Origin: Methanosaeta sp. PtaB.Bin039
Lineage (GTDB): Archaea > Halobacteriota > Methanosarcinia > Methanotrichales > Methanotrichaceae
Assembly: GCA_002067795.1 (NCBI GenBank)
Contig: MVQI01000065.1
Coordinates: 1-40,315, forward strand
Length of the DNA stretch: 40,315 nt
Direction: 5' to 3'
Both the position numbers and the translations under genes were made by a program. Shown piece after piece: positions 552 to 32,366 of the stretch (its first letter is position 1; each line of letters starts with the position of its first letter). The notes beneath the pieces were generated by a model, which saw only the letters and a list, made by a program, of their open reading frames with translations, did not search any database and had not been told where the DNA came from.

Positions 552-1502
552 TCAGATACCGCTCAGCTTTTCAACCAGCCGGTCAACGATTCGGTCGAGG
601 CTGATCCTGGCGGGGCTCTCAGTCCCAACAAATGGCCGGCCCCTGTCGGCCAGCTTCCCGATTGCAGGGTCCAGCGGAACCTCTCCCAAGAACTCTATGC
701 CCAGACCTGACGCAACCGCCTCTGCCTGCCCCTTCTCAAAGACGTCAATGGTCTGGCCGCAGTGAGGGCAGAGCATACCGCTCATGTTCTCGATTATCCC
801 AATTATCGGCACCCCCATCGACCTAAACATGCTGACTGCCTTGGCTGAGTCCAGGAGGGCCACGTCCTGCGGGGTGGTGACGATGATAGCTCCGTCCAGT
901 CCTGGAAGGAGCTGAACCAGGCTGATGGGCTCGTCGCTGGTTCCCGGCGGCAGGTCGACTATCAGAAAGTCCAGGTCCCCCCAGCTGACGTCAGCTACGA
1001 ACTGCTTGATGGCAGCCATCTTCATGGGACCCCTCCAGACGACGGCTGAGTCGCGGGAGGCCAGTATGAGGGCCATCGATATCACCTTTATGCCATCGGC
1101 CATTGCCGGCTCGATGCCCTCAGGTCCTGATCTAAGCCTCTGATCCTCGATGCCCATCATCTTGGGGATGTTGGGCCCGGTGATGTCTGCATCCAGGAGG
1201 CCGACTCGAAATCCCCGGCTCTTGAGGTTATGGGCAAGGTTGACGGAGACCGTGCTCTTGCCTACCCCTCCCTTGCCGCTGCCAACAAGCACCTTGTGCT
1301 TGATCCGGGAGAGCTGCGAAGATGACGCAAAGGCCTGGGATGCCCGGGGATCGGAGCAGCTTCCCTTTGACGCACAGCTCTGGCACGAGCTGTCGCAGCT
1401 CTCAGGCGATGCCTTTTCGGATGTCTTGCTGGCGCTTTCTGCCGGTCTTCTCTTTCCTTTGCCGGGCTTAGTTCTTGGGACACTCTGGTCAGCGTTCTTC
1501 AT
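552..1502 (-). CDS. Mrp/NBP35-type Fe-S cluster carrier P-loop ATPase
   Basis: This is a P-loop ATPase of the Mrp/ApbC/NBP35 family, which in known members binds and transfers [4Fe-4S] clusters in the cytoplasm. The frame is open from a GTG at 1556 (334 aa). I prefer the ATG at 1502 (316 aa) because GGTGAG sits 6 nt upstream of it. In the longer numbering the deviant Walker A motif GSGKGGVGKS is at 92-101, the Walker B-like VDLPPGTSDEP at about 200-210, and the conserved CPHC cluster-binding pair at 263-266. An NBP35-like N-terminal cysteine set (C54, C58, C61, C67) follows a Lys/Arg-rich tail. Such a double cysteine arrangement is typical of the archaeal branch. No operon partner is apparent. 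Identity is secure; the exact client proteins are unknown. Confidence 0.93.
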   Translation of the reverse strand: MKNADQSVPRTKPGKGKRRPAESASKTSEKASPESCDSSCQSCASKGSCSDPRASQAFASSSQLSRIKHKVLVGSGKGGVGKSTVSVNLAHNLKSRGFRVGLLDADITGPNIPKMMGIEDQRLRSGPEGIEPAMADGIKVISMALILASRDSAVVWRGPMKMAAIKQFVADVSWGDLDFLIVDLPPGTSDEPISLVQLLPGLDGAIIVTTPQDVALLDSAKAVSMFRSMGVPIIGIIENMSGMLCPHCGQTIDVFEKGQAEAVASGLGIEFLGEVPLDPAIGKLADRGRPFVGTESPARISLDRIVDRLVEKLSGI

Positions 1503-1705
1503 CCAGATCTCACCATCAGAGGATTTCTGGCCCGGAGAAGCGAAGAGTACCTTCACCGTCCATCATATCCATGGCACTTCTGCCCACCAGATATAGTTTT
1601 CCAAAAGAGATGTGCATGGGCCGGTCGCTGGCATTGGAATAAGTATTTTGTTTCGTCTATCGGGATTTTTTTTCGTGATATTTGAGTGGGGATCTGCATA
1701 GGCCG

Positions 1706-1825
1706 ATGAGAGGCATGACCAGACTGAACCTGAAAGGCACCGATATCATACCCCCAGAAATGGCTGAAATATGCCAGAAGATTGCTGCCTCCAGCAGTGA
1801 CGCCATTGGACACTGCCCCCTTTAA
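1706..1825 (+). CDS. Candidate small protein, 39 aa
   Basis: An ORF from ATG 1706 to TAA 1823-1825 encodes a peptide starting MRGMTRLNLKGTDIIPPEMA and ending DAIGHCPL, with balanced amino-acid composition. It lies in a gap between two minus-strand genes, and a T-rich run (GGGCGCC then T7) follows the stop, as in archaeal terminators. A second ATG is at 1715. No strong Shine-Dalgarno is visible. I do not recognise the family. Conservation in related genomes would decide it. The rest of 1557-1897 shows nothing else convincing. Confidence 0.3.
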   Translation: MRGMTRLNLKGTDIIPPEMAEICQKIAASSSDAIGHCPL

Positions 1826-1897
1826 CGGGCGCCTATGTTTTTTTGCAGCCCCTGTGTTTCCGAATTTGAAAAAAACGCCCAAAATTACAGCTAGATT

Positions 1898-2788
1898 TCA
1901 GATCTTGGCGAAAAAGAAAAGCCGACCGTCCAGACTGGACCGGGTGATCTTCTTCTCTGCCTCAAGGATCTTCAGATACTTCATCAGGTCGGAGCACGAC
2001 AGCTCAGTCCCTGCAGACAGGTCTTCAACCGTAGCTCCTTGATTTAAAAGGGAGAGTATCTGGGCCTCTGCTGCCGGCGGAACTTGCCAGTCCCAGTCCG
2101 GGATGATCTCTGCATCCGGGAACACCTCCAGCATATCCAGCATCTCATCCTGGCTGAGTGGCAGGACGGGTTCGGATGGGGGGCGGACAACGGTGTTGAG
2201 CTGGAGCCGGTCAGGCGAGATCTCCTCCGCGGCTTTGGCAATCCTTTCCGCATCGGTCTCGTTCACTCCTTTTACCAGCATCACCTCGAGCCAGATCTCA
2301 CCTCCGAACTCCGTTCGGAAGGACTTAAGCCCCTCTATGATGTCTCCGATGAGCAGTCCTGGTGCAGGGCGGTCTATCTGCTCGAAGACATCCTGGCTTG
2401 CAGCGTCCAGAGAAGGCAGAACCAGGTCTGCAGAGGCCACCTCCCGGCGCACCGCCGGGCTGGTCAGAAGGCTGCTATTGGTTATGACGGCAATCGGTCG
2501 GTCCATCATCTCCCTGGCGGCTCGGATTATATCGCCGAGGCCAGAGTGAAGCGTGGGCTCGCCTGATCCTGCAAATGTCAGAAAATCGAAATCCTGGTCG
2601 CAAACCGATCTGATCTCGCGCAATACCCGCATCTCAGGTACGAAGCGATCTCGCCTGGTGGTGAGACACGTTGTCGACCCTATCTCGCAGTAGCTGCAGT
2701 CCATGCTGCATGTCTTGAGCGGAAGCAGGTCAACTCCCAGCGATAGTCCCAGCCGTCGGGAGAGCACTGGTCCAAATACGTGATCCAT
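1898..2788 (-). CDS. Radical SAM protein (COG0731/TYW1-like) with C-terminal winged helix
   Basis: A 296-residue radical SAM enzyme. The cluster motif CSMDCSYC lies at 27-34, and the SAM-binding GSGEPTL segment follows near 95, as in COG0731 Fe-S oxidoreductases that are distant relatives of the tRNA wyosine enzyme TYW1/Taw1. The N-terminal FGPVLSRRLGLSLGVDLLP is characteristic of that family. Residues after about 235 (AAEAQILSLLNQGATVEDLS onward) look like a small winged helix, an appendage often seen in this group. The substrate is unknown. It lacks the extra N-terminal CCxxC region typical of true Taw1 enzymes, so I do not call it Taw1. It is monocistronic as far as can be seen. Confidence 0.85.
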   Translation of the reverse strand: MDHVFGPVLSRRLGLSLGVDLLPLKTCSMDCSYCEIGSTTCLTTRRDRFVPEMRVLREIRSVCDQDFDFLTFAGSGEPTLHSGLGDIIRAAREMMDRPIAVITNSSLLTSPAVRREVASADLVLPSLDAASQDVFEQIDRPAPGLLIGDIIEGLKSFRTEFGGEIWLEVMLVKGVNETDAERIAKAAEEISPDRLQLNTVVRPPSEPVLPLSQDEMLDMLEVFPDAEIIPDWDWQVPPAAEAQILSLLNQGATVEDLSAGTELSCSDLMKYLKILEAEKKITRSSLDGRLFFFAKI

Positions 2789-2855
2789 CCATCACCGATC
2801 CTCTCCGGAGATTCGCCGGATCGATCTTAGCTCCTCAGCTTTAACTGTGCTGCCA

Positions 2856-2995
2856 ATGGCTTATATCACTGTTGATCAGGCCAAGGAAGCCAAAAAAGCG
2901 TGATAGGAGAATGCGATTCTTCGGAAAAAAAGCTCCTGGTCTGGCTGGACGCAGTCGCTAGCCGCAATGAATCGAAAAAGCAGCCTTGGGCCTGA
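2856..2995 (+). pseudogene. Possible micro-gene split by a frameshift
   Basis: ATG 2856 opens MAYITVDQAKEAKKA and stops at a TGA right after an A6 run. A -1 shift at that run continues into IGECDSSEKKLLVWLDAVAS and ends with KKQPWA at TGA 2993-2995. Joined, they give a coherent peptide of about 46 residues. It could be an indel-broken small gene, a site of frameshifting, or chance. The rest of the gap 2789-3080 shows no other gene. Confidence 0.3.
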
Positions 2996-3080
2996 TGCAG
3001 GAGGCATGACTGAAAAATGCTGTCTCGATTTTGTGGCAGATTGGCCGTATAGTCCAAGCCAGAGAACATAATTGCTCTTC

Positions 3081-3926
3081 TTATGCCTTTTGTTCTCGAC
3101 TATCCACTATCGCCTTTGCAACCCTGACCGCGATATTGGCGCCGGGTATCAGCATACCTGCTGTCGTCTCCCCGAGATCGAAGATAAGATCGCGAGTAAC
3201 GACCTTCTCAACCTGCTGCCGCAGAGTGATTCCGCCTGTAGCCATGGCTCCGGTCAGGCCGTCGAACTCAGCCACGGCCGTCTTTCCCTTTGCTTCCCAT
3301 TTATATTCAAAAGCGTATACCGGTCGGAAGTATAGCTCAATTTTCTTGATATCAACGCTCTCCGTGTGTATCTCGTCTGCCTGGATTGGCCTTAGCATCG
3401 ATGTGAGAACCTGTCTTACAGCGGCGCTTGCATGCATTTCAGGCTGCACGATGATGTTTCCCTCTGGCGCAGCCTTTGAGAGGTCAGTTACGCGTTCTTT
3501 ATCAAATAACAGGTACTTCTTCCAGTCTCGTTGCTGATTATGCATGGCGTCAAAGATGAATTCAGAGCTGTTCTCCTCGACGCAATGCTCGACTCCGTCA
3601 AGTACAAACTGGTGAGGCTCAGCAGTCACATCATAATCCGTTCCGTTTATCGTAACACGCCGGACTTCGGGCGCGAGAACTGGAACGATAAAATTTCGCC
3701 TGCGGTCGTATTCATAGCATACCTGGCAGACAACATGCCAGAACGGCTCGTACCTGCATTCGCTGTATGAAATCTGGACTTCCTCAGCCTTTGGTCTCGA
3801 AAGCAGTCCAGCCAAACCGCTGCTAAATACCATCGTCTTTTTATCCCATGCCTTTTCCCTTGCCTTTTCCATATTTATCATTGGAAGCAGGCGAAATATC
3901 TCCTCCTGGCCCAGCGTAATTTCCAT
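3081..3926 (-). CDS. Hypothetical protein, 281 aa
   Basis: The frame is open further upstream to 4394, but the start is set at ATG 3926 (MEITLGQEEIFRLL) because AAGGAGGG lies 7 nt before it. The upstream extension also runs through an IS-like repeat at about 4041. Nothing upstream of 3926 looks like protein. The product has no signal peptide or clear membrane helix. It includes a short Cys pair (VCQVCYEYDRRR), which may be a minimal metal site. The C-terminal region is hydrophobic and Gly/Ala-rich (GMLIPGANIAVRVAKAIVDS). I do not recognise the family and assign no function. Confidence 0.75.
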   Translation of the reverse strand: MEITLGQEEIFRLLPMINMEKAREKAWDKKTMVFSSGLAGLLSRPKAEEVQISYSECRYEPFWHVVCQVCYEYDRRRNFIVPVLAPEVRRVTINGTDYDVTAEPHQFVLDGVEHCVEENSSEFIFDAMHNQQRDWKKYLLFDKERVTDLSKAAPEGNIIVQPEMHASAAVRQVLTSMLRPIQADEIHTESVDIKKIELYFRPVYAFEYKWEAKGKTAVAEFDGLTGAMATGGITLRQQVEKVVTRDLIFDLGETTAGMLIPGANIAVRVAKAIVDSREQKA

Positions 3927-4040
3927 TCGATGCCCTCCTTGCCTGTTATCAGCACAACATAAGATCCCTGCTTGTCTAATATCTCTTTCGCAAATAGAGA
4001 CATGAAGATTATTCTCAATCAGTATATTATAAATATTTGT

Positions 4041-4075
4041 TAATTGGCGACGACGCAACCCGCCGCAGAGCTCCA
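4041..4075. repeat. Copy of an IS-end-like GC repeat
   Basis: TAATTGGCGACGACGCAACC followed by CGCCGCAGAGCTCC resembles the start of the element at 6199 (TCAAATTGCGGCGGCGCACC followed by CCGCAG) in the same orientation. It sits within AT-rich DNA upstream of the 281-aa gene. Assigned by visual alignment only. Confidence 0.4.
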
Positions 4076-4288
4076 AGGACATTACGATAAGATCCACGAA
4101 CTTATCTGATATGCCGAGATAGTATAATGTCTCGTTCTTCAGATTAGAGAGAATCTGCAGCCGCAGATCCGGGCAGGGGGTGAACTGCCAGATCAGATGG
4201 CATTTCGGAGGAAAGGGATGCTGCAGCCGAAGCATGATCATGAATAATACCAACAAATTTATGGCAGATACAAGAGCTATGTTATCGT

Positions 4289-5455
4289 GTGCAAACCTCG
4301 AAGAGCGCCTTGGCCCTTGTCGCTGCAGTGCTAATCCTTTCCATGGGATGTGCCATCGCAGCTTATGACAGGCCCATGAAGGAAGTCCAGGCAAGCGAGA
4401 TTGTGGGCAAGATTAAGAATAATAAATCTGTGGAATATGATCGCATTATAGTTAAAGGGCCACTGGATTTAAAGAATTTAATTACGAAATCTCATATAGA
4501 AATAACCAATTCTAGATTCGAGAGTTACATTGACCTCAGAAGCTCCACACTTAGCAATTTCGTGATCTTCCGAGGATCCACGTTCGGAGCAAATGTTTAC
4601 TTCAATTCGTCGAACTTCAATGGAGCCGTTGCGGATTTTAGGGGATCTACTTTTATCAGAAATGCCAATTTCGCGCATTCTACCTTTGAAGGATATGCCG
4701 CCTTTCAAGGTTCGACGTTTGCTGGGGACGCTGACTTTTCTGAGTCCACATTCAACGATTATGCCGTCTTTAGTGATTCTAAATTTAGCAGGACCGCAGA
4801 TTTCATTCTATCAAAATTTATTAAACATGCATATTTTGTAAATTCTACGTTCAATGAATCCGTTTGCTTAGATGATTGCCAATTTGAGGACGATGCCCTT
4901 TTTAACGGCGCAAAGATCCTGGGATGTCTGCGCCTTCAAAGAACAGATTACGATAAATTATATATTAGATGGAACAATATTAAAGAGCTATCTTATGAGG
5001 ATACTGCTTATCTTCGGTTGATCGAGAACTTCAAGAAACTGGGGATCTATCCCGATGCCGACCAGTGCTACGTCTCCTACCGAAACGAGAATCGTCAGAC
5101 TTTGCCTCTTTACTATCGCCCTATCGACTGGCTGCTCTGGATCCTGTACGGCTACGGGACCATGCCAGAGCTGCCGTTCATCTGGTCGGTCCTCGTAATC
5201 CTCCTAAGCGGCGGATTCTTCTACTTTACGGCGGATATCGAGACTCCCGACAAGAAGACAACCCTCATGGAAGCAATGTACCTCAGCGCAGCGGCGTTCA
5301 CGTCCGGCGCCAGGACGCTGGGCGGTTTCGTCTCCACCCCGGAGGACGTGTTGGTGAAGGGAAGAGCCAGATATGTGCTGGCTGCCGAGAAGCTGCTGGG
5401 CCTGCTCCTGGTGGGTCTGTTCCTGACCGCCCTTGCCAGGACAGTGATCAGGTAA
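4289..5455 (+). CDS. Secreted pentapeptide-repeat protein with C-terminal channel-like membrane domain
   Basis: 388 residues from a GTG start. No good Shine-Dalgarno is visible, so the start is uncertain. Residues 1-25 form a signal peptide (KSALALVAAVLILSMGCAIA). Residues about 50-215 are degenerate pentapeptide-type repeats with a recurrent A-x-F-x-x-STF pattern (ANFAHSTFEGYAAFQGSTF), expected to fold as a right-handed beta-helix. After a linker, the C-terminus has a hydrophobic segment (LPFIWSVLVILLSGGFFYF), a possible pore loop (LSAAAFTSGARTLGG) and a final membrane helix (LLGLLLVGLFLTALARTVI). That arrangement resembles two-helix ion channels, but the TxGYG potassium filter is missing. 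The repeat half would face outside the cell. The repeat half is visibly AT-richer than the membrane half. Function is unknown. Confidence 0.85.
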   Translation: MQTSKSALALVAAVLILSMGCAIAAYDRPMKEVQASEIVGKIKNNKSVEYDRIIVKGPLDLKNLITKSHIEITNSRFESYIDLRSSTLSNFVIFRGSTFGANVYFNSSNFNGAVADFRGSTFIRNANFAHSTFEGYAAFQGSTFAGDADFSESTFNDYAVFSDSKFSRTADFILSKFIKHAYFVNSTFNESVCLDDCQFEDDALFNGAKILGCLRLQRTDYDKLYIRWNNIKELSYEDTAYLRLIENFKKLGIYPDADQCYVSYRNENRQTLPLYYRPIDWLLWILYGYGTMPELPFIWSVLVILLSGGFFYFTADIETPDKKTTLMEAMYLSAAAFTSGARTLGGFVSTPEDVLVKGRARYVLAAEKLLGLLLVGLFLTALARTVIR

Positions 5456-5633
5456 TCGGCATTTTTTCGGATCAGCTCTGCTGCTGAAAAGCCCTGGCAA
5501 GATAGCATCCCTCGGAGCTATGCTGATCGCAGGAAGCCTTTGCAGCTCCACGTTGCAGGTCCTGTCCATATCAGTCCTCAGGATTCGCTTGCAGCCAGGC
5601 ATTCATGCTCGATGCTTATCATCGCCACAAGTG

Positions 5634-5850
5634 TCATAAAGGAACGAGGGGCTGTCGAACGGCTTTTCCTTTGGGATCGAACTTGGATTCAGGCGGATTG
5701 CCCAACGGCACTAGAGACTTGATGAATGCTTCCTCGGATTCGTCTATCCGGCTTCTGCTGAGACCAATCGCTTTTTTGCCCCCTAGATACATCACCAGCC
5801 TCACATTGGCCAGGTACGGACTGTGACTTCTACATGCGGGCTTTTGATGA
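5634..5850 (-). pseudogene. Protein fragment of unknown family
   Basis: The minus strand reads YLANVRLVMYLGGKKAIGLS followed by RSRIDESEEAFIKSLVPLG and ends at a TGA immediately below 5634. The composition looks coding, but no start with a ribosome site is evident; a GTG inside ANVRLV could start a 56-aa peptide. Surrounding DNA is decayed, so this is probably the 3' end of a lost gene. The remainder of 5456-6419 holds structured or IS-like sequence and no convincing gene. Confidence 0.35.
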
Positions 5851-6198
5851 TGCCTATCCAGACAAGTAAGTAGTCCAGCAGCTTGCCGGACAAATACCAT
5901 GGTAACACAACGTGGTCATCATCAACAGGATCAAAGATCCAAAGGCGCGGGGAACGGTACATCCGTGCCTGCATCGAGAATGGCTGGAGCAGGGTCCGGC
6001 GAAATGTGCATCAGCCGAATGGCGTAGCCGAGTACCTGCTGGGCCAAGGCGCTCCCAGTAAGCCTGAAAGGCAACCTGCCAAGAGTGGAGCACCCGAAGG
6101 CGGAATGGAAGTCGGTGGGGATGAGGGGGCATAAAGGCTATGGGAACCGGGATAATCAGAACACATAGACGAAGATCTTCTATAGATATTAACTAAAG

Positions 6199-6250
6199 TC
6201 AAATTGCGGCGGCGCACCCCGCAGTAGAACTGCGGGGCATGCTTCGCGCC
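6199..6250 (+). repeat. IS200/IS605-end-like element with 8-bp hairpin
   Basis: TCAAATTGCGGCGGCGCACC leads into a perfect stem CCCCGCAG (6217-6224) / CTGCGGGG (6230-6237) with loop TAGAA, then CATGCTT. The layout (GC-rich lead-in, hairpin, then [C/T]ATGCTT) recurs at 8265-8313 and in part at 4041 and 6369. Confidence 0.55.
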
Positions 6251-6368
6251 GTAGCCTAAGGATTCTGGTTTTTAGGAAAGCCCTCTAACATGTGGCACCG
6301 TTAAACCGCAGAATATTGTCCCAAAATACGTGAACAGAGCAACTGTTTGTCTATTATATGCTCATCCG

Positions 6369-6390
6369 CGCAGCAGAGCTGCGGGGTATT
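6369..6390 (+). repeat. Short hairpin related to the IS-end-like elements
   Basis: CGCAGC (6369-6374), loop AGA, GCTGCG (6378-6383), followed by GGGTATTCG. It lies about 30 bp downstream of the stop of the radical SAM maturase and could also serve as its terminator region: on the minus strand, transcripts of that gene run into it. Confidence 0.4.
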
Positions 6391-6419
6391 CGATAAAAAT
6401 AAAAAATTTATCTCTGCAA

Positions 6420-7823
6420 CTATAGATCTCGTGAGGTGCCCAATTTTCGCTTATTATAATTCATAGATGTCAATAGATTTTTTGTCCTAGTGTCATCTTG
6501 AAATATATCTGCAATCTCTGGCAGCAAGGCTTCAAGTATTGATTTCATCTCGAGACATCTTCTCTCTGTAGGTCGAGACAGTTCTCCATATGAGATATAG
6601 GATTGCCAATGGCACTCCCCTCCACACAAGAACCTAGCCCAGCAGGAGCTGCAATGATTGGAAGTATATACATTTGATTTATAAAATAATTCTCTAATTC
6701 TTGTGAATCTTTCTCCAGGAAAATCCTCATCATGAACATTTCCCATGTGGAATTCCTCTAATCCTATAAACATATGACATGGGTACACATCTCCGTCAGC
6801 GGTTATCGTTATGAACTCTCTGCCAGCTGAGCACATATATATTTTTCTGGTCTTAGTCAGCATATGAATTAATAAATCTGATATATGTGACCTGAATTTT
6901 ACCGCTTCCCCCCTTGCTAGCCGATTTATGTTTTTGACCAGAATTGTTGTCAATTCCTGCACATATTCTGCAAACGCGTCATCATCTATATAGAATTCAC
7001 TATCCTGGGGAACGGCTTTGACAGATCCGATAGCCATAAAATCTATGTTAAAGGACTCTATATGTTCTACAATTTCTGTTAATCTATTAACGCCTTTCTT
7101 TGTGATGATGGATTTGATCGATAAAGAATGACTTCTTGGATTGAGCCGATCTATTGTCTCAATAATGCAATCATGGACGCTTTCATTAAGCCCAAACCGT
7201 TGCTTGTCATTGATATCTTTGGGTCCATCCAGACTTATGCTTAGATAAAAGAGCTTATCATTAAGGAAATTCTTTATTTCATCATTTATTACAGTCCCAT
7301 TAGTTACGGCAATATATTTCGATCTCAAATTTCTTTTGCATAAATAAGAATCTATCTCTTTAATCAGCGAAAAGTTCAATAGTGGTTCTCCTCCAAAAAA
7401 GACAATAAAGTTGGCGTAATCCTTGCTAAGAAGCTTATCTATGCACCTCTTTGCAGTTACATAGCTCATAAATCTTCTTTCAGCTCCGTATGATCCGCAA
7501 TTCGCATAACAATATCCGCACTTCAGGTTACAATCTTGGCTGATCATAAGATTTAGAGTCCTCGGTTCTGAATTGACCCAAGCGGGATCCTTCGATGAAT
7601 CATGCCCAATATTCTCTGAAATATAATTTAATAATTTTGGGATGTAATCTTCTGATTCGATAGAGCCTTCTGCCAGGGAATCTGAATCTTCAGAAGGAAC
7701 CGGAGAAGATCTTAAGGTTTCTCCAATGCATTCCTTAGCATAGAACAATCTAAGCGACTCAGGATGAAAAACGGCAAATTTGCCATCTTTTCTAATTATA
7801 TGGATATCATTTATATCTATCAT
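6420..7823 (-). CDS. Radical SAM/SPASM peptide maturase of a probable RiPP locus
   Basis: 467 residues. Residues 1-60 form an N-terminal region typical of peptide-modifying radical SAM enzymes (KDGKFAVFHPESLRLFYAKE). The radical SAM cluster motif CNLKCGYC is at 98-105, and FFGGEPLLN near 142-150 is the SAM-binding GGEP motif. The SPASM domain carries C331 and C349 (CSAGREF...DGDVYPC) and C391, C394, C400, C404 and C423, enough for two auxiliary [4Fe-4S] clusters. Known SPASM maturases cross-link or oxidise short peptides. A 34-aa candidate substrate is encoded just upstream (7985-8089). There is no Shine-Dalgarno at ATG 7823, so translation may be coupled to the short ORF overlapping it. The gene is clearly AT-richer than its neighbours, suggesting transfer. 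The N-terminal region and adjacent peptide argue against an anaerobic sulfatase maturase. Class is sure; chemistry is unknown. Confidence 0.92.
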   Translation of the reverse strand: MIDINDIHIIRKDGKFAVFHPESLRLFYAKECIGETLRSSPVPSEDSDSLAEGSIESEDYIPKLLNYISENIGHDSSKDPAWVNSEPRTLNLMISQDCNLKCGYCYANCGSYGAERRFMSYVTAKRCIDKLLSKDYANFIVFFGGEPLLNFSLIKEIDSYLCKRNLRSKYIAVTNGTVINDEIKNFLNDKLFYLSISLDGPKDINDKQRFGLNESVHDCIIETIDRLNPRSHSLSIKSIITKKGVNRLTEIVEHIESFNIDFMAIGSVKAVPQDSEFYIDDDAFAEYVQELTTILVKNINRLARGEAVKFRSHISDLLIHMLTKTRKIYMCSAGREFITITADGDVYPCHMFIGLEEFHMGNVHDEDFPGERFTRIRELFYKSNVYTSNHCSSCWARFLCGGECHWQSYISYGELSRPTERRCLEMKSILEALLPEIADIFQDDTRTKNLLTSMNYNKRKLGTSRDL

Positions 7824-7890
7824 AGCACTGACTCATAAAGTCGGGGCCACATATAGCGGCCCCAATCTCAAACCTCTTGTCAGTCCACAT
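7807..7890 (-). CDS. Possible short coupling ORF, 27 aa
   Basis: ATG 7890 to TGA 7807-7809 encodes MWTDKRFEIGAAICGPDFMS followed by QCYDRYK. Its 3' end overlaps the maturase start by 17 nt. It has no Shine-Dalgarno. It could be a second peptide, a translational coupler or chance; part of it runs through the intergenic hairpin. Confidence 0.2.
   Translation of the reverse strand: MWTDKRFEIGAAICGPDFMSQCYDRYK
7843..7863 (-). promoter_or_regulatory. Hairpin between precursor and maturase
   Basis: GGGGCC (7843-7848) and GGCCCC (7858-7863) form a perfect 6-bp stem with a 9-nt loop, in the transcript between the peptide ORF and the maturase. Such hairpins commonly attenuate or process RiPP operons so that precursor exceeds enzyme. 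That role is inferred. Confidence 0.45.
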
Positions 7891-7912
7891 CTTCGAGGCG
7901 TACTTGTTGCTT

Positions 7913-7979
7913 CGATCCTAATCTGTAACTAGATGCAGATGGATGAATTTATCCACTATCTATTATCATTCTAGGATCG
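7913..7979. repeat. Inverted repeat downstream of the precursor ORF
   Basis: CGATCCTA (7913-7920) and TAGGATCG (7972-7979) are perfect 8-bp complements separated by 51 nt, just past the precursor stop. They could close a long 3' stem in its mRNA. A chance match is possible. Confidence 0.3.
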
Positions 7980-7984
7980 GATTT

Positions 7985-8089
7985 CTAGTGACGTGGATCC
8001 GCACCAGGGTCGCAGAACGCCGTGTTCTCAATAAAGACCTCTTGAAGTCCTTCGATTTCTGGTATCTCTATTTCAACAATCCCATCCAT
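7985..8089 (-). CDS. Candidate RiPP precursor peptide, 34 aa
   Basis: ATG 8089 to TAG 7985-7987. The near-perfect ribosome site AAGGAGGTGA ends 5 nt before the ATG, the best in the window. The peptide begins MDGIVEIEIPEIEGLQEV, a strongly acidic amphipathic stretch of the sort that serves as a leader bound by the maturase. It then runs FIENTA and ends FCDPGADPRH, with a single Cys near the C-terminus followed by Asp, Pro and Gly. That terminus is the likely core; the lone Cys suggests a thioether or other Cys- or backbone-based modification, but this is inference. The gene is directly upstream of and co-directional with the SPASM maturase. It matches no peptide family I can name. Confidence 0.75.
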   Translation of the reverse strand: MDGIVEIEIPEIEGLQEVFIENTAFCDPGADPRH

Positions 8090-8159
8090 ATCATTCACCT
8101 CCTTGCAATTCATTGTTAATTGATACGCTGTTATGACCTGTATTGTACGTGTGGCTATT

Positions 8160-8185
8160 TATGGATATATGAAAATGTACTAAGA
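8160..8185 (-). promoter_or_regulatory. Candidate archaeal promoter of the precursor/maturase operon
   Basis: On the minus strand this reads ACATTTTCATATATCCATAA, an AT-rich TATA-like stretch about 75-95 nt upstream of the precursor start. It is the best TATA-like sequence in the gap 8110-8520. Placement is approximate. Confidence 0.3.
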
Positions 8186-8264
8186 ATTAACTCGAGAAGC
8201 CAATTCAAAAATTTTATGAATTTATGCTAACTGGTGAGGAATTAGTTTTAAAATTACTGAGAAA

Positions 8265-8313
8265 TCAAACTGTGGCGGCCACCTCGCCCTAAAGGACGGA
8301 GTATGCTTTGAGC
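8265..8313 (+). repeat. IS200/IS605-end-like element
   Basis: TCAAACTGTGGCGGCCACCT leads into an imperfect hairpin CTCGCCC-TAAA-GGACGGAG, followed by TATGCTTTGAGC. It aligns by eye with the copy at 6199. The flanking 8314-8520 shows no gene. It lies upstream of the precursor promoter, so an IS end may bound the peptide operon. Confidence 0.5.
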
Positions 8314-8521
8314 TGCACACCCGGTTAGCCGGAACTCAGGACTCCTCCAGTCTTAGTTGCCCAAATCTCTTTATCAGAATCATTGTGACTCTGCTATCGG
8401 TTTTCAGAGGAGCCTTATTAATCAATCTAAGGAATATGAAAACCGGGCGAGGGTTCACTTCATCTCCAACCTAATGTTGAGGTATTCGTGATCCTCCGTG
8501 CTCCCGAATTAATAAACTAAC

Positions 8522-10222
8522 TCAATAATCTATTAAAGTGCATTCCTCCAGATGCTCGTAATCACCCCACCCAGATCCAAACTCGAATCCCTTGAATTCG
8601 CTACTCATAATAGCATATTCCATTGGGTGCACCAGTGGAATCAATCCCACATCCTCGAATAGGATATTGCATGCGTCGCAGATATATCCATCCCTCTCCT
8701 CTCTGTTCGATGCCATGTAGGCGTTATACACAAGATCTGCGAGACTGTTATTTACATTGTCATACTTGGCTTTGAATGACATCATACTAGAATTGAAAAT
8801 CAACATTTGTTGTGCCATTGGATAGGTCCTGACATTGCTTCCGGCCAATAGCAGCTCATAATCTCCCACTTTGCGAGACTCCTTATAACCATTATAGTCA
8901 AATGTTTGAATATTTATAGCAATTCCTATATTCTTGAGCTGGGATCGGACTATTACCGCCACATCCTGCATCCATTCCAAACCCGGTGCAGATGAGATTG
9001 TCAAGTCAAGGCTTTCAAGCGGTTTCCCGTTCTTATCAAGAAGGCCATCTCCATCCGAATCTTTCCAGCCCGCTTCAGACAATAGCCTCTTAGCCATTTC
9101 TGGATTATGATTGTAGCCCTGTTGGCAGCAAGCTGGAACCTCGGGCAATTGCGGAGAGAGGTACATAGTATCGATGGCTTCTGTTGCGTATCCCCTGAAG
9201 GCACTAGCTACTATCTCCTTTCGGTCAATTGCGTAGCACATAGCCTTCCTTAGCAGTATGCCATCTGACCCATTGAAAGGCTCCTTCCAATAAGCTGTTG
9301 CTAGGTAATAGGTTCTGGCGTCTGGTCTTGTCTTTATGGTTATCTTTGGGTTGTTCTCTAGCGGTACAATCGAAGATAGAGATGGATTCCAATATCTACA
9401 AATATAATCTATCTCACCTTTTTCCAAGGCCTTGATAGCGACCTCTGGATCTTCGATATACTTTAGCACTATCTTGTCCGCCTTGGGTTTATGGAAGTTC
9501 AAATCATCTCTCCATGAGTGTCTCTTTTTGAGAACCACTACCTGGTTAGGAGTTGACTCATTTTCGTCCACCCAATAAGGCCCAAGCCCATTGTACCTCT
9601 TATCTGATCTCAATATTCCTTTGATATCCCAGGCAGGAGTTACATCCTGGGGATGGATGAACGCCGATAATGTTGGAGTCGAGCTGAGATCCCGCGCCAC
9701 ATTCAGCCAGCCTTGAGAAAAATGGACCTTGAAAGTTCTCTCATCTGCTGCCTCTGAATAATCATAGTAAATATATATAGGTAAATTATATATATCTCGG
9801 AGGTCTGTATAGCCGTGAGTTATCAATCTATCGAAGTTGAACTTCAGGATTGATGCATTCAGCGGCGTTTCATCTGCGAACCTGACTCCCTCCCGCAGAT
9901 GAAATGTCACAGTCTTGGTGTCGTCAGAAACTTCAAAGGATTCTGCCATCCAGGGGATGATATTTCCGTCACCATTCACTTCGATCAAAGGAGAGTAATG
10001 TGTATAGGAGTGGTAGTTTTCCAAACCACCAATATCGGGCCATACCTTACTGCTGAGAGTTGGATCGATTTCGAAGCTCTTCATAGCTTGGGCATAGGGC
10101 CCTATGCTGATGTTCAGAGTGTTCTCCGTTGATGAGGCAGCCTGAAGCCCCGAGAGAAGCAGCAATATCATCAGTATTCGAAAAACGATATTCAATGCAC
10201 TCAAGCTTAGATAATCCCTCAT
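8522..10222 (-). CDS. Family 5 (oligopeptide/nickel type) extracellular solute-binding protein
   Basis: 566 residues with an N-terminal signal (VFRILMILLLLSGLQAASS) lacking a lipobox Cys, so probably a secreted or N-terminally anchored form. The body has the SBP_bac_5 features: Y-x-PLIE near 77, an ESFEVSDDTKTVTFHLREGV stretch near 91-110, an LRKAMCYAIDRKEIV segment and a PEMAKRLLSEAGW segment. Family members bind oligopeptides, nickel or similar solutes. No matching Opp/Nik-type permeases are next to it; the neighbouring transporter is ABC-2 type. It shares an intergenic region with that divergent transporter, and AGGATG precedes the start. In this context it may bind the peptide product or an extracellular signal peptide. 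A stand-alone Ni/peptide receptor is the alternative. Confidence 0.9.
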   Translation of the reverse strand: MRDYLSLSALNIVFRILMILLLLSGLQAASSTENTLNISIGPYAQAMKSFEIDPTLSSKVWPDIGGLENYHSYTHYSPLIEVNGDGNIIPWMAESFEVSDDTKTVTFHLREGVRFADETPLNASILKFNFDRLITHGYTDLRDIYNLPIYIYYDYSEAADERTFKVHFSQGWLNVARDLSSTPTLSAFIHPQDVTPAWDIKGILRSDKRYNGLGPYWVDENESTPNQVVVLKKRHSWRDDLNFHKPKADKIVLKYIEDPEVAIKALEKGEIDYICRYWNPSLSSIVPLENNPKITIKTRPDARTYYLATAYWKEPFNGSDGILLRKAMCYAIDRKEIVASAFRGYATEAIDTMYLSPQLPEVPACCQQGYNHNPEMAKRLLSEAGWKDSDGDGLLDKNGKPLESLDLTISSAPGLEWMQDVAVIVRSQLKNIGIAINIQTFDYNGYKESRKVGDYELLLAGSNVRTYPMAQQMLIFNSSMMSFKAKYDNVNNSLADLVYNAYMASNREERDGYICDACNILFEDVGLIPLVHPMEYAIMSSEFKGFEFGSGWGDYEHLEECTLIDY

Positions 10223-10239
10223 TGAAAAACATCCTGAAT

Positions 10240-10255
10240 TAACATTTTTTTATAG
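10240..10255 (-). promoter_or_regulatory. Candidate TATA box of the solute-binding protein gene
   Basis: The minus strand reads ATACTATAAAAAAATG here, about 20-30 nt before ATG 10222. That is the distance expected for an archaeal TATA element with a very short leader. Confidence 0.4.
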
Positions 10256-10603
10256 TATTACAATAAATACTACGGCGGTCGAATGCAATACACTGGCGCT
10301 AACCCAGCTGCGCGACAGAAGGGGAACGAGGTCTGCGGCGCGATGCCCATGTCCTTATTCGTACTAATGCACTTCATGTTGATCATTAAATATCAATTTT
10401 ATATCATATTATAGCATTAGATGTTACTAACATAAAGATATATAAGTATTTCTGAACCCAAAAATCTTTGACAACCTAAGCAGCAAGCATAGAATTGGGA
10501 AATCACACTGTAATCCTATTATCATCAGATCCATATCATGCATCAGTCAAACTATATATGATAAATACAAATACCATAAATCATAAATTTACACTTTACC
10601 GAA

Positions 10604-10612
10604 AGATATAAC
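10604..10612 (+). promoter_or_regulatory. TATA box of the DrrAB-like operon (leaderless)
   Basis: AGATATAAC is centred 29 bp before ATG 10637, and no Shine-Dalgarno precedes that ATG. Both suggest a leaderless archaeal transcript. A further TATA-like AGATATATAAG lies near 10436. The gap 10223-10636 is otherwise AT-rich with no convincing gene. Confidence 0.5.
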
Positions 10613-10636
10613 ATAATTGATGCTACTCATTATATT

Positions 10637-11596
10637 ATGGGAAATCCGATCATCTCCATGAAAAACCTGTCCAAGGCGTACCATGGCGAAAAAGCGGTAG
10701 ATAACGTGAACCTGGAGATCGATAAGGGAGAGTTCTTTGGGTTACTTGGGCCCAACGGTGCTGGCAAGAGCACAGTGATAAAGATGCTGACGACGATAAT
10801 TCACCCAACGGAGGGAACCGCAACCATCCATGGACATGATATAATCGAGGAGCGGGACGCAGTTAGATCCTGCATTGGGGTCGTATTCCAAGATTCCGTC
10901 CTGGACAGAAAACTCACAGGCAGAGAGAATCTGGATTTCCACGCAAGACTGTACGGCCTGCGAGGGGATATGCGTCGCGAAAGAATAGAAGAAGTCTTGG
11001 AGCTTGTGGAGCTTAAGGATAAGGCTGATGTCTTGGTGGAGAGATACTCCGGTGGAATGCAGCGCCGCCTGGCCATAGCCCGCGGGCTTATGCATCACCC
11101 AGGAGTCCTCTTCCTCGATGAGCCGACTTTAGGCCTGGATGCCCAATCCAGACGCCATATCTGGAAATACGTAAAAGAGCTGAACCTTCGCGAGGACATT
11201 ACAATAGTCCTTACCACCCATTATATGGAAGAGGCGGATCAACTGTGTGAGAGGGTCGCCATAATCGACCGAGGAAGAATAGTAGCCCTGGATACGCCTG
11301 AGAACCTGAAAGGCCTAATCGGCGCCGATACCATTGTGATGCACATCCAGAGCGGTGGCGAGATTCTGCTCCAATCTCTCAGCTTCTTTCCTTGGATTGC
11401 TTCATCAGAAGTGAGCAATGGTAAGATTCTCTTGCGGGTAGATGATGCACAATCGCGAATACCACAGGTGGTTATCGAAGCCTGCATGAACAGGGCAATT
11501 GTATCTCATGTGGGTATTATTGAACCGACATTGGAGGACGTCTTTCTAAAGCTCACCGGTCGAACCTTGCATGAATGCGAGGACTCGGGCAATTGA
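10637..11596 (+). CDS. ABC-2 type exporter ATP-binding protein (DrrA-like)
   Basis: 319-residue ABC ATPase. Walker A GPNGAGKST is at 38-46, the Q-loop at Q85, the signature SGGMQ at 138-142, Walker B LFLDEP at 158-163 and the H-loop His at 195 (TTHYMEEAD). The C-terminal about 80 residues match the DrrA/CcmA-type extension, ending with the common GIIEPTLEDVFLKLTGRTL. Such proteins power export of antibiotics, peptides or polymers through an ABC-2 permease, here the next gene 27 bp downstream. The pair is divergent from the solute-binding protein and near the radical SAM peptide genes, which makes peptide export the leading hypothesis. Confidence 0.95.
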   Translation: MGNPIISMKNLSKAYHGEKAVDNVNLEIDKGEFFGLLGPNGAGKSTVIKMLTTIIHPTEGTATIHGHDIIEERDAVRSCIGVVFQDSVLDRKLTGRENLDFHARLYGLRGDMRRERIEEVLELVELKDKADVLVERYSGGMQRRLAIARGLMHHPGVLFLDEPTLGLDAQSRRHIWKYVKELNLREDITIVLTTHYMEEADQLCERVAIIDRGRIVALDTPENLKGLIGADTIVMHIQSGGEILLQSLSFFPWIASSEVSNGKILLRVDDAQSRIPQVVIEACMNRAIVSHVGIIEPTLEDVFLKLTGRTLHECEDSGN

Positions 11597-11623
11597 ATTT
11601 GGCTCTTCAAAGGAGACAGCATC

Positions 11624-12391
11624 GTGAGATTTTATCTCTATGAGGCATATAGTCTCTGGCGCAGGGATATGCTGAGCTTCTCCAGGCAGAAGGATCGATT
11701 AATCGGTTACTCCTTTGCTCCATTGTTCCTATTGGCGTTCATAGGACTCGGATTTAAGAACCAGATCTATTTTCCTGAGATGAAGAACATCGATTACCTG
11801 AGTTTCCTCACCCCCGGAATGGTGGCAATGACTCTGCTTACCGCATCCAACTCTACAAGCTTCCTGATGCTATGGGATAGAGAGATGGGCTTTCTTAAGG
11901 AGATCATGGTCACTCCTTCCAGCAGGATTGGGATAATCCTTGGAAGAACTGCTAGTGGAGTTACTGTCGCCATATTTCAGAGCTTTATTATATTATTTGG
12001 AGGAATAGTCATGGGCTCGAGATTCCATAGGCCAGAAGGGATGCTGATCTCGTTGATCTTCATGGCGTTAATTGCCTCGGCATTTATAGGCCTGGGATTA
12101 TCGCTAGCATCCTTCAAGAAGGAGACTTACGGATTTTCGCTCGTCCTGAACTTCATTCTATACCCGTTCCTCTTCCTATCCGGCGCTCTCTACCCTGTGG
12201 ACCGCCTACCGTCCTTAGTTGCTCCATTGTCATACTACAATCCGCTCACTTACGGCATAGACGGCCTGCGATACAGCCTCCTTGGGGTAAGCAGCTTCAG
12301 TCCCGCTCTTGACCTGGGAGTAATGGCCGCAAGCTGCCTGGCCATGCTCGGCCTTGGAACCTACCTATTTGAGAAGGGCGAGTGGGATTGA
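11624..12391 (+). CDS. ABC-2 type transporter permease (DrrB-like)
   Basis: 255 residues from a GTG start with AAAGGAGA 8 nt upstream. About six membrane helices are visible, for example FAPLFLLAFIGLGF, FLTPGMVAMTLLT, FQSFIILFGGIVMG, ISLIFMALIASAFIGLGLSL, LNFILYPFLFLSGALYP and LGVMAASCLAMLGLGTYLF. The cytoplasmic MGFLKEIMVTPSSRIGIILG is the family's conserved coupling segment (E-x-MVTP). It forms an exporter with the preceding ATPase. After its stop the same frame stays open from TTG 12395 to TAA 12541 (starts AIGQDLIIAATEYAGNYGLK), perhaps a gene remnant. Confidence 0.93.
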   Translation: MRFYLYEAYSLWRRDMLSFSRQKDRLIGYSFAPLFLLAFIGLGFKNQIYFPEMKNIDYLSFLTPGMVAMTLLTASNSTSFLMLWDREMGFLKEIMVTPSSRIGIILGRTASGVTVAIFQSFIILFGGIVMGSRFHRPEGMLISLIFMALIASAFIGLGLSLASFKKETYGFSLVLNFILYPFLFLSGALYPVDRLPSLVAPLSYYNPLTYGIDGLRYSLLGVSSFSPALDLGVMAASCLAMLGLGTYLFEKGEWD

Positions 12392-12655
12392 GGATTGGCT
12401 ATTGGTCAGGATCTCATTATCGCCGCAACTGAATATGCTGGGAACTACGGGCTGAAGCTTCATGGACAGATAGAGGAAGTCCAGATTCTGCACCAGCATA
12501 GAAGTGGCAAAACCAATACCGTTGAGACTAGTACATACTAATTGTAATTTATGGCGCATTTATTGATATAATATCCCATAACTATTGCTAAGATACATTG
12601 AAATACTATTAGATCGTAGAACTGTTAAGGTGTCAACATACGTAAGTGAATTCCT

Positions 12656-12922
12656 ATGAGGCAGAGGAGAAGAAGCAAGGATATGATCCTTCACGATATC
12701 CTGAGTGTCTGCACCAAAGGGGAGAGTATTACCCAGATAGTGTACAAATCAAACATCAACTTCCCCATAGCCAGACGGTTTCTCGAGCCGATGCTTAAGA
12801 GCAATCTGCTCGAGAAGATAGACAATTCGCCCGTCATCTATAAGACCACTCCCAAAGGCGAGGACACCCTGGCGCGGCTAAAGATACACCTGGATCAGAT
12901 GAAAGGGGTATTCGGAGATTGA
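12656..12922 (+). CDS. Small winged-helix transcriptional regulator (HTH_45-like)
   Basis: 88 residues. The order is SKDMILHDILSVCTKGESIT, then the recognition-helix region VYKSNINFPIARRFLEPMLK, then the wing (IDNSPVIYKTTPKGEDTLAR) and a short C-terminal helix. That is the archaeal ArnR1/HTH_45 winged-helix pattern, proteins that bind DNA as dimers. It follows the exporter genes on the same strand after a 264-bp gap and is the likely local regulator of the peptide/exporter island. Its start lacks a clear ribosome site. A mainly AT-rich stretch without a gene (12923-13185) follows. Confidence 0.85.
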   Translation: MRQRRRSKDMILHDILSVCTKGESITQIVYKSNINFPIARRFLEPMLKSNLLEKIDNSPVIYKTTPKGEDTLARLKIHLDQMKGVFGD

Positions 12923-13980: not shown

Positions 13981-14838
13981 ATGACCACGGAGTTCCGCAG
14001 CTGGCAAGCCATATGGGAGGAGACGATAAGACACTCTAGCCTCAACCGCGTCCGATAGGATCTTTCTGAAAAAGAACGGCTGGACATGATTGCAGAGGTT
14101 TCATTGAAGACTTATGGGGGCAGGCTGGATCAGACAGATCCGAAGAAGAAGGCCGAGTTCGAGGCAGAGCTAAATCGCTTGATGCGATTCATCAACAAGG
14201 ATTCGAGCGTTCTTGACATCGGAGCTGGATATGGCCGCCTCGCCATTCCCCTGGCCAGGCACGTGAGAAAGATGACTGTCGTCGAGCCCGCCCATCCCTT
14301 CATGAATCAACTGAAAAGTGAATGCCAGGCAAGAGGGGGCAGACAACATAGAGTTCGCAGAAGACCTCTGGTCCGACTTTCCTCTGCAAGAGAAGTACGA
14401 CCTGGTCTACAGCACCTGGAGTTCAGCTGTTCGAGACCCCGCCACCCTGATGAAGATGCACGATGCCAGCTGTGGCTACTGCGTTTTGGAATCATTGGCC
14501 AGCCCATTCAGGATCTTTGACTTCTCAGGGTAGATCTATCCACTGATCATGGGAGAGGAGTACCGAGCCCCTGGAAACTATCTGAAATGTGGTGACTACG
14601 CTCCACGACTACCAAATCTATGCCAATATCGAGATCTGTTTGTTCGACAGAGATGAGAGATACCAGACTATGGAAGAGGCACTGGTGATCCAAAAGACGC
14701 TGCTTGCGAACTACATCGAGGCCGACGAGCTAACCGAGGATAAGCCGAAGGCAGTACTTCCGGTCCAAAATGAATCCGGACGGGTCCTATAATACTCGCG
14801 TAAAGAGCGCCAACTGCATGGTGTGGTGGAAGGCATAA
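13981..14838 (+). pseudogene. Broken class I SAM-dependent methyltransferase
   Basis: Reading from ATG 13981 gives MTTEFRSWQAIWEETIRHSS, then TAG at 14056-14058. The same frame continues as LSEKERLDMIAEVSLKTYGG and the SAM-binding motif VLDIGAGYGRLAIPLARHV. A frameshift near 14325 leads into EGADNIEFAEDLWSDFPLQE and STWSSAVRDPATLMKM. A TAG at 14531-14533 follows, with a further frame change to TTLHDYQIYANIEICLFDRD, and another shift near 14790 to VKSANCMVWWKA and TAA 14836-14838. At least one nonsense codon and three shifts interrupt an otherwise full-length gene of about 280 codons. The remaining parts still look well conserved, so inactivation seems recent. The original substrate is unknown. 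Confidence 0.85.
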
Positions 14839-29834: not shown

Positions 29835-32366
29835 ATTAGAGCTTCGCATAGAGCCGCATGGGCTGCCCTTGTTCTTTTGATGACGATCCTGGGTGCCCAG
29901 GTCAGCACTTCCTCAGATCAGGAAGCAGCTGACTCACGTTATATTCAACTGAGCAACAACTCTACCGCTTATCAATTGCTGAGCGATGCTGACAGAAGCA
30001 TCGACCTTGTGACAAACCGCAGAAATCCGCTGACCGTCAACTCCAGCCTCGATTCGATGGCCTACGGAGATATAACCGAGTCCCAGTCGGAAGGCAGCGT
30101 GGTCGTGATCCAGTCCAACGACAGCACAGAGTGCCAGCCTGTAATTGGCACCACCTATCGCGATTCCGTCCCCTGTCAGATTGAGCCGGTGCAGGCCCCC
30201 AAGGGTGCGCCAAATGTGATCTACATCGTACTGGACGACATTGGATTCGGCGGGCTGGGCTGCTTTGGAGGGCCGGTAGAGACCCCCAATATAGACCGCC
30301 TTGCATCGACAGGGCTGAGATACAACAACTTCCATACAACGGCCATCTGTTCTCCTACCAGGGCCTGCCTCCTTACCGGCCGCAACCACCACTCGGTCGG
30401 TGTGGGTACCCTGATGGAGTTTGCCAGCGGCTATCCTGGTTACAACGCCCACCTCTCCAAGAATGCAGCCACAATACCTGAGATGCTTGTAGAGCAGGGT
30501 TACAACACATATTGCGTGGGCAAGTGGCATCTGGCCCCTTCGGAAGATCTGAATGCAGCAGGACCCTACGACCAGTGGCCGTTGGGGCGCGGATTTGAGC
30601 GGTTCTACGGATTCTTGGAGTCGCATACAAGCCAGTGGTATCCGGACCTGGTCTATGACAATCACCGCATAGATCCGCCGGCGACGCCCGAGGAGGGATA
30701 CCACCTGTCCAAAGACCTTGTGGACAGATCCATAGAATTCCTGAGCGACGGCAGATCGGTAACCCCAGATAAGCCCTTCTTCCTCTACCTGGCCTTTGGA
30801 GCCGGACACTGGCCGCACCATGCTCCCAAGGAGTTCATAGAGAAGTACAGGGGCAGGTTCGACCAGGGCTGGGATGCGATGAGAAACGAGACACTGGATC
30901 GGCAAAAGGAGCTGGGCATTGTGCCCGAGAACACAACTCTTCCGCCAAGAGATCCTTATGTGAAGGCCTGGGACAACCTCTCTGAAGACGAGAAGAAGGT
31001 TTATGCGCGGCTGGCCGAGGTCCATGCCGGCTACGTGGACTACACCGACCAGGAGTTAGGCAGGTTCCTCGATTACCTTGAGCAGAGCGGAATTCTCAAC
31101 AATACCATAATCGTGCTGGTTTCCGACAATGGAGCTTCTCCTGAGGGAGACGCCAACGGCTACGACAACATGGCATTCTGGTCAAACGGATTATCTGAGG
31201 GCGGGGATTTCTCTGGTTTCCTATCTGATTATCAGCAGGTCCCTGGATCCAATATCAGCACCCTGCTCTCCAGACTGGATCTGATTGGAGGACCGATGTC
31301 CTATCCGACATATCCTCTGGGGTGGGCCATGGCGGATAACACCCCGAACAGGCTTTACAAGTGGACCACTTATCAGGGCGGGGTGCATGACGCCATGATA
31401 ATATCATGGCCCGCCAGGATAATGGACAATGGCAGCATAAGAACGCAGTTCTGCCATGCTATCGACGTCGTGCCGACAATCCTTGAAGCCGTGGGCATAG
31501 GAGCTCCTGAGGTCTATAACGGGTATCCGCAGAAGCCGATCGAGGGAATCAGCCTTGTCTACACATTCGATCAGCCGGATGCGCCGACTCGAAAGACCGT
31601 CCAGTACTTTGAGATGATGGGCACCAGAGGGATCTGGCATCAGGGCTGGAAGGCCGTGGCATTCCACCATGTGAACTCCGGCGGCAACTTCGATCAGGAT
31701 ACCTGGGAGCTATACGACCTGACCAACGACACTTCAGAGTCCCACGATCTGGCAGCAGAGTATCCGGAGAAGTTACAGGAGATGGAGGATCTGTGGTGGG
31801 CAGAGGCCGAGAAGTACAATGTACTGCCACTGGACGACCGGGCTTTGGCCAGGTACGAGACGGTTCCCAAGACCGGGACCTTTGTCTTCTATGCGGGCGC
31901 GGAAAAGGCGATGGAACCCAACATACCCGACACCAGGAACAGCTCTTATTCCATAACCGCAGATGTGGAAATTCCGCCGACCGGAGCGGAGGGCGTGCTA
32001 TTTTCCATCGGCGGGAGGTTCTCTGGCCTCTCACTGTACATCCAGGACAGCCACCTGGTCTTCGACTACAACTTCCTGGGAATCAAGCATCACACCATCG
32101 TCTCACAGGATGAGATAGCCGCAGGACCTGCTGTCATGGGCTTTGCCTTCAACAAGACCGGGCCTTACCATGGCATGGGCACGCTTTATATCAACGGCAC
32201 TCAGCAGGGCCAGATGCCCATAGGGCCCACAGTCCCGAACCGCTACTCCTTTGAGGAGGGCCTCGAGATAGGCAAGGACCCGCAAACCCCTGTCAACGAG
32301 AGCTACAGCAGTCCGTTTTCGTTCACAGGGACTCTGAAGAAGGTCGTATTTGAGGCGGAGGGATAA
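29835..32366 (+). CDS. Secreted arylsulfatase-family protein
   Basis: 843 residues if started at ATT 29835 (829 from TTG 29877). The extended start restores a full signal peptide, RASHRAAWAALVLLMTILGA, after the initiator Met. In the 829-residue numbering the sulfatase domain begins APNVIYIVLDDIGFGG (metal Asp120/Asp121). The maturation motif is C158-S-P-T-R162, with Cys for formylglycine conversion, then GRNHHSVG and GKWHLAP. The C-terminal 180 residues are a LamG/concanavalin-like beta-sandwich (EGVLFSIGGRFSGLSLYIQD). It should cleave sulfate esters outside the cell. Sulfatases are uncommon in methanogens, so transfer from bacteria is likely. No matching formylglycine-generating enzyme is recognised in the window. 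Confidence 0.92.
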   Translation: MRASHRAAWAALVLLMTILGAQVSTSSDQEAADSRYIQLSNNSTAYQLLSDADRSIDLVTNRRNPLTVNSSLDSMAYGDITESQSEGSVVVIQSNDSTECQPVIGTTYRDSVPCQIEPVQAPKGAPNVIYIVLDDIGFGGLGCFGGPVETPNIDRLASTGLRYNNFHTTAICSPTRACLLTGRNHHSVGVGTLMEFASGYPGYNAHLSKNAATIPEMLVEQGYNTYCVGKWHLAPSEDLNAAGPYDQWPLGRGFERFYGFLESHTSQWYPDLVYDNHRIDPPATPEEGYHLSKDLVDRSIEFLSDGRSVTPDKPFFLYLAFGAGHWPHHAPKEFIEKYRGRFDQGWDAMRNETLDRQKELGIVPENTTLPPRDPYVKAWDNLSEDEKKVYARLAEVHAGYVDYTDQELGRFLDYLEQSGILNNTIIVLVSDNGASPEGDANGYDNMAFWSNGLSEGGDFSGFLSDYQQVPGSNISTLLSRLDLIGGPMSYPTYPLGWAMADNTPNRLYKWTTYQGGVHDAMIISWPARIMDNGSIRTQFCHAIDVVPTILEAVGIGAPEVYNGYPQKPIEGISLVYTFDQPDAPTRKTVQYFEMMGTRGIWHQGWKAVAFHHVNSGGNFDQDTWELYDLTNDTSESHDLAAEYPEKLQEMEDLWWAEAEKYNVLPLDDRALARYETVPKTGTFVFYAGAEKAMEPNIPDTRNSSYSITADVEIPPTGAEGVLFSIGGRFSGLSLYIQDSHLVFDYNFLGIKHHTIVSQDEIAAGPAVMGFAFNKTGPYHGMGTLYINGTQQGQMPIGPTVPNRYSFEEGLEIGKDPQTPVNESYSSPFSFTGTLKKVVFEAEG

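Follow-up and report, generated by a model that had tools for sequence, protein, structure and literature searches.

A candidate minimal precursor and radical SAM/SPASM maturase pair of the RiPP kind in a methanogen genome

Introduction

The locus described here raises the question of whether a 34-aa open reading frame (ORF) ahead of a SPASM radical SAM (rSAM) gene encodes the substrate of that enzyme, and whether the transport and regulatory genes next to both belong to the same system. RiPPs modified by rSAM enzymes are widely predicted in archaea. A survey published in 2025 found few identified archaeal RiPP products and left the rSAM-modified ones for future work (PMC12144867).

The window, which is the whole 40,315-nt stretch of DNA analysed, corresponds to contig C65 in a genome of 2.45 Mb. 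The gene content is that of a methanogen, with a (5-formylfuran-3-yl)methyl phosphate synthase (methanofuran biosynthesis) that passes its cut-off and a match to CTP-dependent riboflavin kinase that does not. An initial annotation of the sequence had combined a small precursor, a maturase, a binding protein, an exporter and a regulator at 6420-12922 into a system that makes, modifies and exports a peptide.

Gene content of the locus

All of the claimed genes are present at the coordinates and on the strands assigned initially, and the SBP_bac_5, DrrA-like ATPase, ABC-2 permease and HTH_45 assignments were confirmed (Table 1). On the minus strand the order of transcription is binding protein, 34-aa ORF, rSAM gene. 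The locus is AT-rich, its GC content being 0.38 compared with 0.55 for the remainder of the window, in line with acquisition from another source.

Table 1. Features of the locus, with positions in the window.
Feature	Position	Strand	Details
Radical SAM/SPASM peptide maturase	6420..7823	minus	467 aa; RRE-like N-terminal domain (residues 5 to about 85)
Structured spacer, peptide to maturase	7824..7984	minus	161 nt; two strong long hairpins, including GGGGCCGC-UAUAU-GUGGCCCC
Candidate RiPP precursor	7985..8089	minus	34 aa, MDGIVEIEIPEIEGLQEVFIENTAFCDPGADPRH; residues 1-25 acidic and leader-like, FCDPGADPRH core-like
Codon of Asp31	7997..7999	minus	proposed thioether acceptor (Cys-X4-Asp), a putative role based on PapB tolerance of n = 0-6
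Codon of Asp27	8009-8011	minus	alternative putative acceptor (Cys-X0-Asp)
Codon of Cys26 (single Cys)	8012..8014	minus	proposed thioether donor (putative role)
Shine-Dalgarno sequence	8095..8103	minus	AGGAGGTGA, 5 nt (ATGAT) ahead of ATG
Family-5 binding protein	8522-10222	minus	SBP_bac_5, 230 bits; same strand as peptide and enzyme
DrrA-like ATPase and DrrB-like ABC-2 permease pair	10637-12391		divergent from peptide and enzyme
HTH_45 winged-helix protein	12656-12922		divergent from peptide and enzyme

The candidate precursor gene

The strong ribosome site attributed to the 34-aa ORF was borne out. In the arrangement AGGAGGTGA-ATGAT-ATG, 9 nt match the anti-SD complement AGGAGGTGATC at ordinary spacing. 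Of all the 12-120 aa ORFs across the 40-kb window, most of the others listed overlapping larger genes, this one alone has nine or more contiguous bases matching that complement. Openness of the frame means little by itself, because 34 open codons would arise by chance at the local composition with a probability of about 0.11, and the Shine-Dalgarno sequence carries the case. Codon usage is uninformative (log-likelihood 2.0; 14% of random ORFs with the same composition score at least as high). The case for a gene rests on the ribosome site together with placement and composition.

Residues 1-25 include seven acidic residues and no Lys or Arg, in agreement with the acidic leader-like half and FCDPGADPRH end originally described, and the N-terminal half alternates hydrophobic and acidic residues (IVEIEIPEIEG). 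The sole Cys is residue 26. Within FCDPGADPRH, Asp27 directly follows this Cys and Asp31 lies four residues on, with the turn-prone DPGA between.

Searches with tblastn of the genome itself, 394 genomes of the phylum and plasmids recovered no homologue of the peptide, all matches being at chance level, and none of the known precursor families matched. The initial view that the single-Cys core sets the peptide apart from known precursors was too strong, as NxxcA has one thioether and PapB takes single-Cys minimal substrates.

The region from 7800 to 7990, which spans the spacer, has a folding energy of -56.3 kcal/mol (z = -3.97), and none of 200 shuffles was equally stable. The hairpins could possibly form an mRNA processing element or set the levels of precursor and enzyme. 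No Rfam family was detected in 5.4-13 kb of the window. A 41-base stretch with CCCTAAAGGACGGAGT at 8262-8302, between the genes for the binding protein and the peptide, recurs with 86% identity near a contig end (G000:C51:160162-160202) and may be an insertion-sequence remnant.

The SPASM radical SAM enzyme

The enzyme, described initially as a co-directional SPASM rSAM protein with full cluster motifs, has every expected ligand and is of the RRE-SPASM peptide-modifying type. The rSAM set and all seven SPASM Cys are complete, with CX3CX2C at residues 98-105, CX12GX4C at 331-349, CX2CX5CX3C at 391-404, and Cys423. By sequence, the closest PDB relative is CteB (5wgg, E 4.7e-51), and the top match of the predicted fold is also CteB (5why/5wgg), over almost the full length.

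The N-terminal domain was compared with the RRE fold using the predicted strands and helices and the nearly full-length fold match to CteB. Three strands (E8-12, E15-20, E25-29) are followed by helices (H31-39, H60-72), as in an RRE, in a model with pLDDT of 81-84 at residues 11-30 and <50 in the loop at 41-60. This predicted arrangement makes it most likely that the domain recognises a leader.

The best NCBIfam match is TIGR04064, for nif11-like peptide maturases, at 220 bits, but its cut-off of 519 is not reached and, by the family models, the 34-aa ORF has no nif11 or NHLP leader. Scores for PapB (204 bits, cut-off 340), SCIFF (204 bits, cut-off 425) and QhpD (185 bits, cut-off 453) are similarly below their cut-offs. 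All four are models of thioether maturases that act on peptides or proteins. As the enzyme is far under all of these equivalog thresholds, its chemistry is not readable from families, and neither the SCIFF nor the PapB model places it with the ranthipeptides.

The second match of the predicted fold is to anSME. At 29877-32366 this methanogen has a gene resembling arylsulfatases, with CSPTR as a Cys-type active-site motif. Its product would supply a substrate if the enzyme were an anaerobic sulfatase maturase, and a sulfatase Cys had been named at the outset as a substrate that would overturn the peptide reading. However, a bona fide anSME is encoded elsewhere in the genome (G000:C60:22968-23951), scoring 503 bits on TIGR03942 against a cut-off of 349.45, while the enzyme in the window scores only 113.5 bits and has the additional RRE-like N-terminal domain. 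This identity was rejected, and next to no probability is attached to it.

Relatives of the enzyme and their neighbours

A search of 50 genomes of the order gave no further copy exceeding 31-32% identity, and among 394 genomes of the phylum there were just three relatives at about 30% identity. A check for conservation of the 34-aa ORF beside the same maturase, as suggested initially, came out negative, with no close maturase in the searched genomes and no detectable homologue of the peptide. A two-sequence profile recovered better-scoring relatives, in G938 and G943 from the same class and in G800 and G808 from a search centred on an Acidobacteria genome. In a first tree the enzyme paired with an Acidobacteria enzyme (97/95). 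In a larger tree with more relatives it is sister to a clade formed by L023 (from an Acidobacteria MAG), G800 and G938/G943, with moderate support (93/96); the one-clade test of this tree does not inform this placement, because G800 nests inside the named group.

Where the context is readable, a Cys-bearing ORF is close to every maturase of this nearest clade. In G938/G943, a 153-aa protein with GFGCGGGCDAWGFGCGLGC ends 9 bases before the maturase, and in G800 a 171-aa protein with CGIGCGSNCGGTCGISC directly follows it. In L023, a Cys-rich ORF of 58 aa lies ahead of the maturase, at a distance of about 770 bases. Since such an ORF is found beside each relative, an adjacent substrate fits for the enzyme in the window. 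The peptide has no significant similarity to these neighbouring ORFs, and of seven tests for a leader shared with other candidate precursors only one rose above shuffles, and that marginally (p = 0.04). From these sequences, the adjacency rule holds with a substrate that is not conserved, and the subfamily appears to have changed substrates. The greater length and Cys-rich nature of the candidate substrates of the relatives count against the pair, as does the distance of the one in L023.

Precursors of the NHLP/Os17 type accompany related maturases in G163 and G017. The locus in G017, a genome of the same family (L082, G017:C180:6000-18000, 1660-6477), includes such a precursor at 57.7 bits, above the cut-off, along with a SPASM maturase and two large putative B12-type rSAM enzymes. 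Relatives on viral contigs were set aside as distant and of unrelated context. Two IMG/VR contigs (L051, 4604-6908, and L049, 4680-6961) carry SPASM rSAM enzymes beside Cys-rich repeat proteins and phage-like genes, and possibly represent phage-encoded peptide or fibre modification.

Rhizobial relatives of the enzyme adjoin large ferritin-like proteins and not short peptides. This would agree with the enzyme being a RiPP or protein maturase with a substrate that is encoded elsewhere or lost, the 34-aa ORF being unrelated or untranslated. The absence of conservation of the ORF, its uninformative codon usage, the 161 nt that separate it from the enzyme gene, and the low GC content, which fits an isolated acquired fragment, point in the same direction. 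However, the ribosome site far surpasses all others in the window, no other short Cys-bearing ORF with a good ribosome-binding site was found adjoining the enzyme, and in related loci a Cys-bearing ORF nearby is the norm. A substrate elsewhere is thus considered somewhat unlikely, and a precursor and maturase pair, irrespective of the chemistry, is the likely arrangement.

Transport and regulatory genes

By sequence, the binding protein is a member of a family of the uptake type, and its best NCBIfam model is the nickel-binding NikA, below cut-off. Relatives sharing 46-62% identity are present in several copies in the same genome and in three related genomes; several have methyltransferases as neighbours, OppB/OppC-type permeases occur in a single case, and no RiPP maturase was seen beside them in the stretches read. 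Of 50 genomes of the order, 32 have DrrB-like genes, most at 45-57% identity, and those inspected have DrrA partners beside them without this maturase.

Joint action of all five parts, namely precursor, maturase, binding protein, DrrAB exporter and regulator, would be in keeping with their physical neighbourhood and shared low GC. Against it are the settings of the binding-protein family and the distribution of DrrB, the maturase being found only here, and the position of exporter and regulator on the opposite strand. A broken methyltransferase of the type seen beside the binding-protein family is also left in the window. The make-modify-export scheme is therefore very improbable; the binding protein and exporter were rejected as system parts on distribution and neighbours, and the transporters most likely have nothing to do with the pair.

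The methyltransferase remnant consists of class I fragments in two frames at 14086-14533 and is apparently frameshifted. A contig assigned to another genus (L114, G016:C4:1-3133) is near-identical to the window from 11891, with 6 differences in 2,900 bases, and probably comes from a close strain and was mis-binned.

Other RiPP-like clusters in the genome

A probable RiPP cluster on C13 of the same genome (L085, G000:C13:14000-28000, 6877-12297, minus strand) contains the tandem precursors MFAELVKGSDESTESVGSWCWPWRNWCFPMGDGPDKSCAEGTAP and MFAELIKGSDDGTDPVRGWCLPMGDCPDCKCIDGKAP and at least two more decayed copies, together with two CefB-like SPASM enzymes and an MsbA-type ABC exporter. The tandem short ORFs have a common FAELxKGSD leader and Cys-rich ends. 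Parallel clusters on C53 (L083, G000:C53:47000-58000, 5473-10076) and C60 (L084, G000:C60:1-7000, 700-5029) each include a CcpM-like SPASM enzyme, a second rSAM protein with a weak grasp-with-spasm match, and an ABC exporter, and a 42-aa Cys-bearing ORF is found ahead of the cluster on C53. These three clusters look fuller than the pair in the window. Their presence makes RiPP production by the organism credible, and the genome suggests that several rSAM peptide clusters, unrelated to one another, can coexist in one methanogen.

Proposed product

The explanation preferred here is a minimal precursor and maturase pair, with the 34-aa peptide as the putative precursor. Its N-terminal half, containing IVEIEIPEIEG, would bind the RRE-like domain, and the enzyme, through SAM radical chemistry, would link Cys26 with a downstream Asp side chain, either Asp31 across the DPGA turn or Asp27. 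The predicted product is a single-ring, ranthipeptide-like peptide that is 2 Da lighter. A single Cys-Asp thioether ring is the most economical prediction because the peptide has one Cys with both Asp27 and Asp31 at spacings accepted by PapB; the chances that the pair makes this ring are about even.

The same pair may perform other chemistry, forming an alpha-carbon sactionine, an upstream link as in NxxcA, an epimerised residue or a C-C link. The similar scores of the enzyme on several thioether families, under all cut-offs, would allow this, and Asn22 is 4 residues before Cys26, while NxxcA links Cys23 to the upstream Asn20. However, the closest characterised relatives, CteB, PapB and QhpD, make non-alpha Cys-Asp/Glu or similar links, and Asp residues follow Cys26 at accepted spacings. 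Other chemistry is accordingly regarded as quite unlikely.

No gene for a protease or a dedicated exporter of the peptide was found in the locus, and any cleavage or export is something that we infer. A more speculative and rather doubtful extension is that the enzyme of this methanogen represents a distinct lineage of ranthipeptide-like synthases, the single-ring, Cys-Asp cross-linked decapeptide FCDPGADPRH being used without a dedicated transporter, for example in an intracellular or signalling role.

If this extension holds, the system would be among the smallest natural rSAM peptide-cyclisation systems and one of few worked archaeal examples. With one peptide, one enzyme and one expected bond, a two-gene pair with a single Cys would offer an unusually simple test case.

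Comparison with known systems

The pair is best regarded as a probable addition to the rSAM/SPASM RiPPs and not as an established ranthipeptide. With the CteB/SCIFF maturases (PDB 5wgg, 5why), the enzyme has in common an RRE-like N-terminus, the rSAM core and full SPASM ligands. SCIFF precursors, however, have six Cys in forty-five residues, whereas the candidate precursor has one.

QhpD and SCIFF-type enzymes make non-alpha thioethers, which in the case of QhpD join Cys to Asp or Glu (PMC8326336). The model for QhpD, the maturase of quinohemoprotein amine dehydrogenase, matches residues 6-434 of the enzyme, including the N-terminus, but the substrate of QhpD is a protein subunit and no such subunit is encoded at this locus.

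The ranthipeptide NxxcA has a single thioether and a single ring, like the proposed product, but its acceptor, Asn20, is upstream of Cys23 (PMC8326336), unlike the downstream Asp proposed here.

The freyrasin maturase PapB connects a Cys with an Asp or Glu downstream of it, tolerates 0 to 6 intervening residues and requires little beyond the leader (PMC9413430). It accepts a single Cys-Xn-Asp with n = 0-6, a range that includes both spacings in the 34-aa peptide (n = 0 and n = 4). Natural PapA carries six CX3D motifs, whereas the candidate precursor has a single Cys shared by one CX0D and one CX4D.
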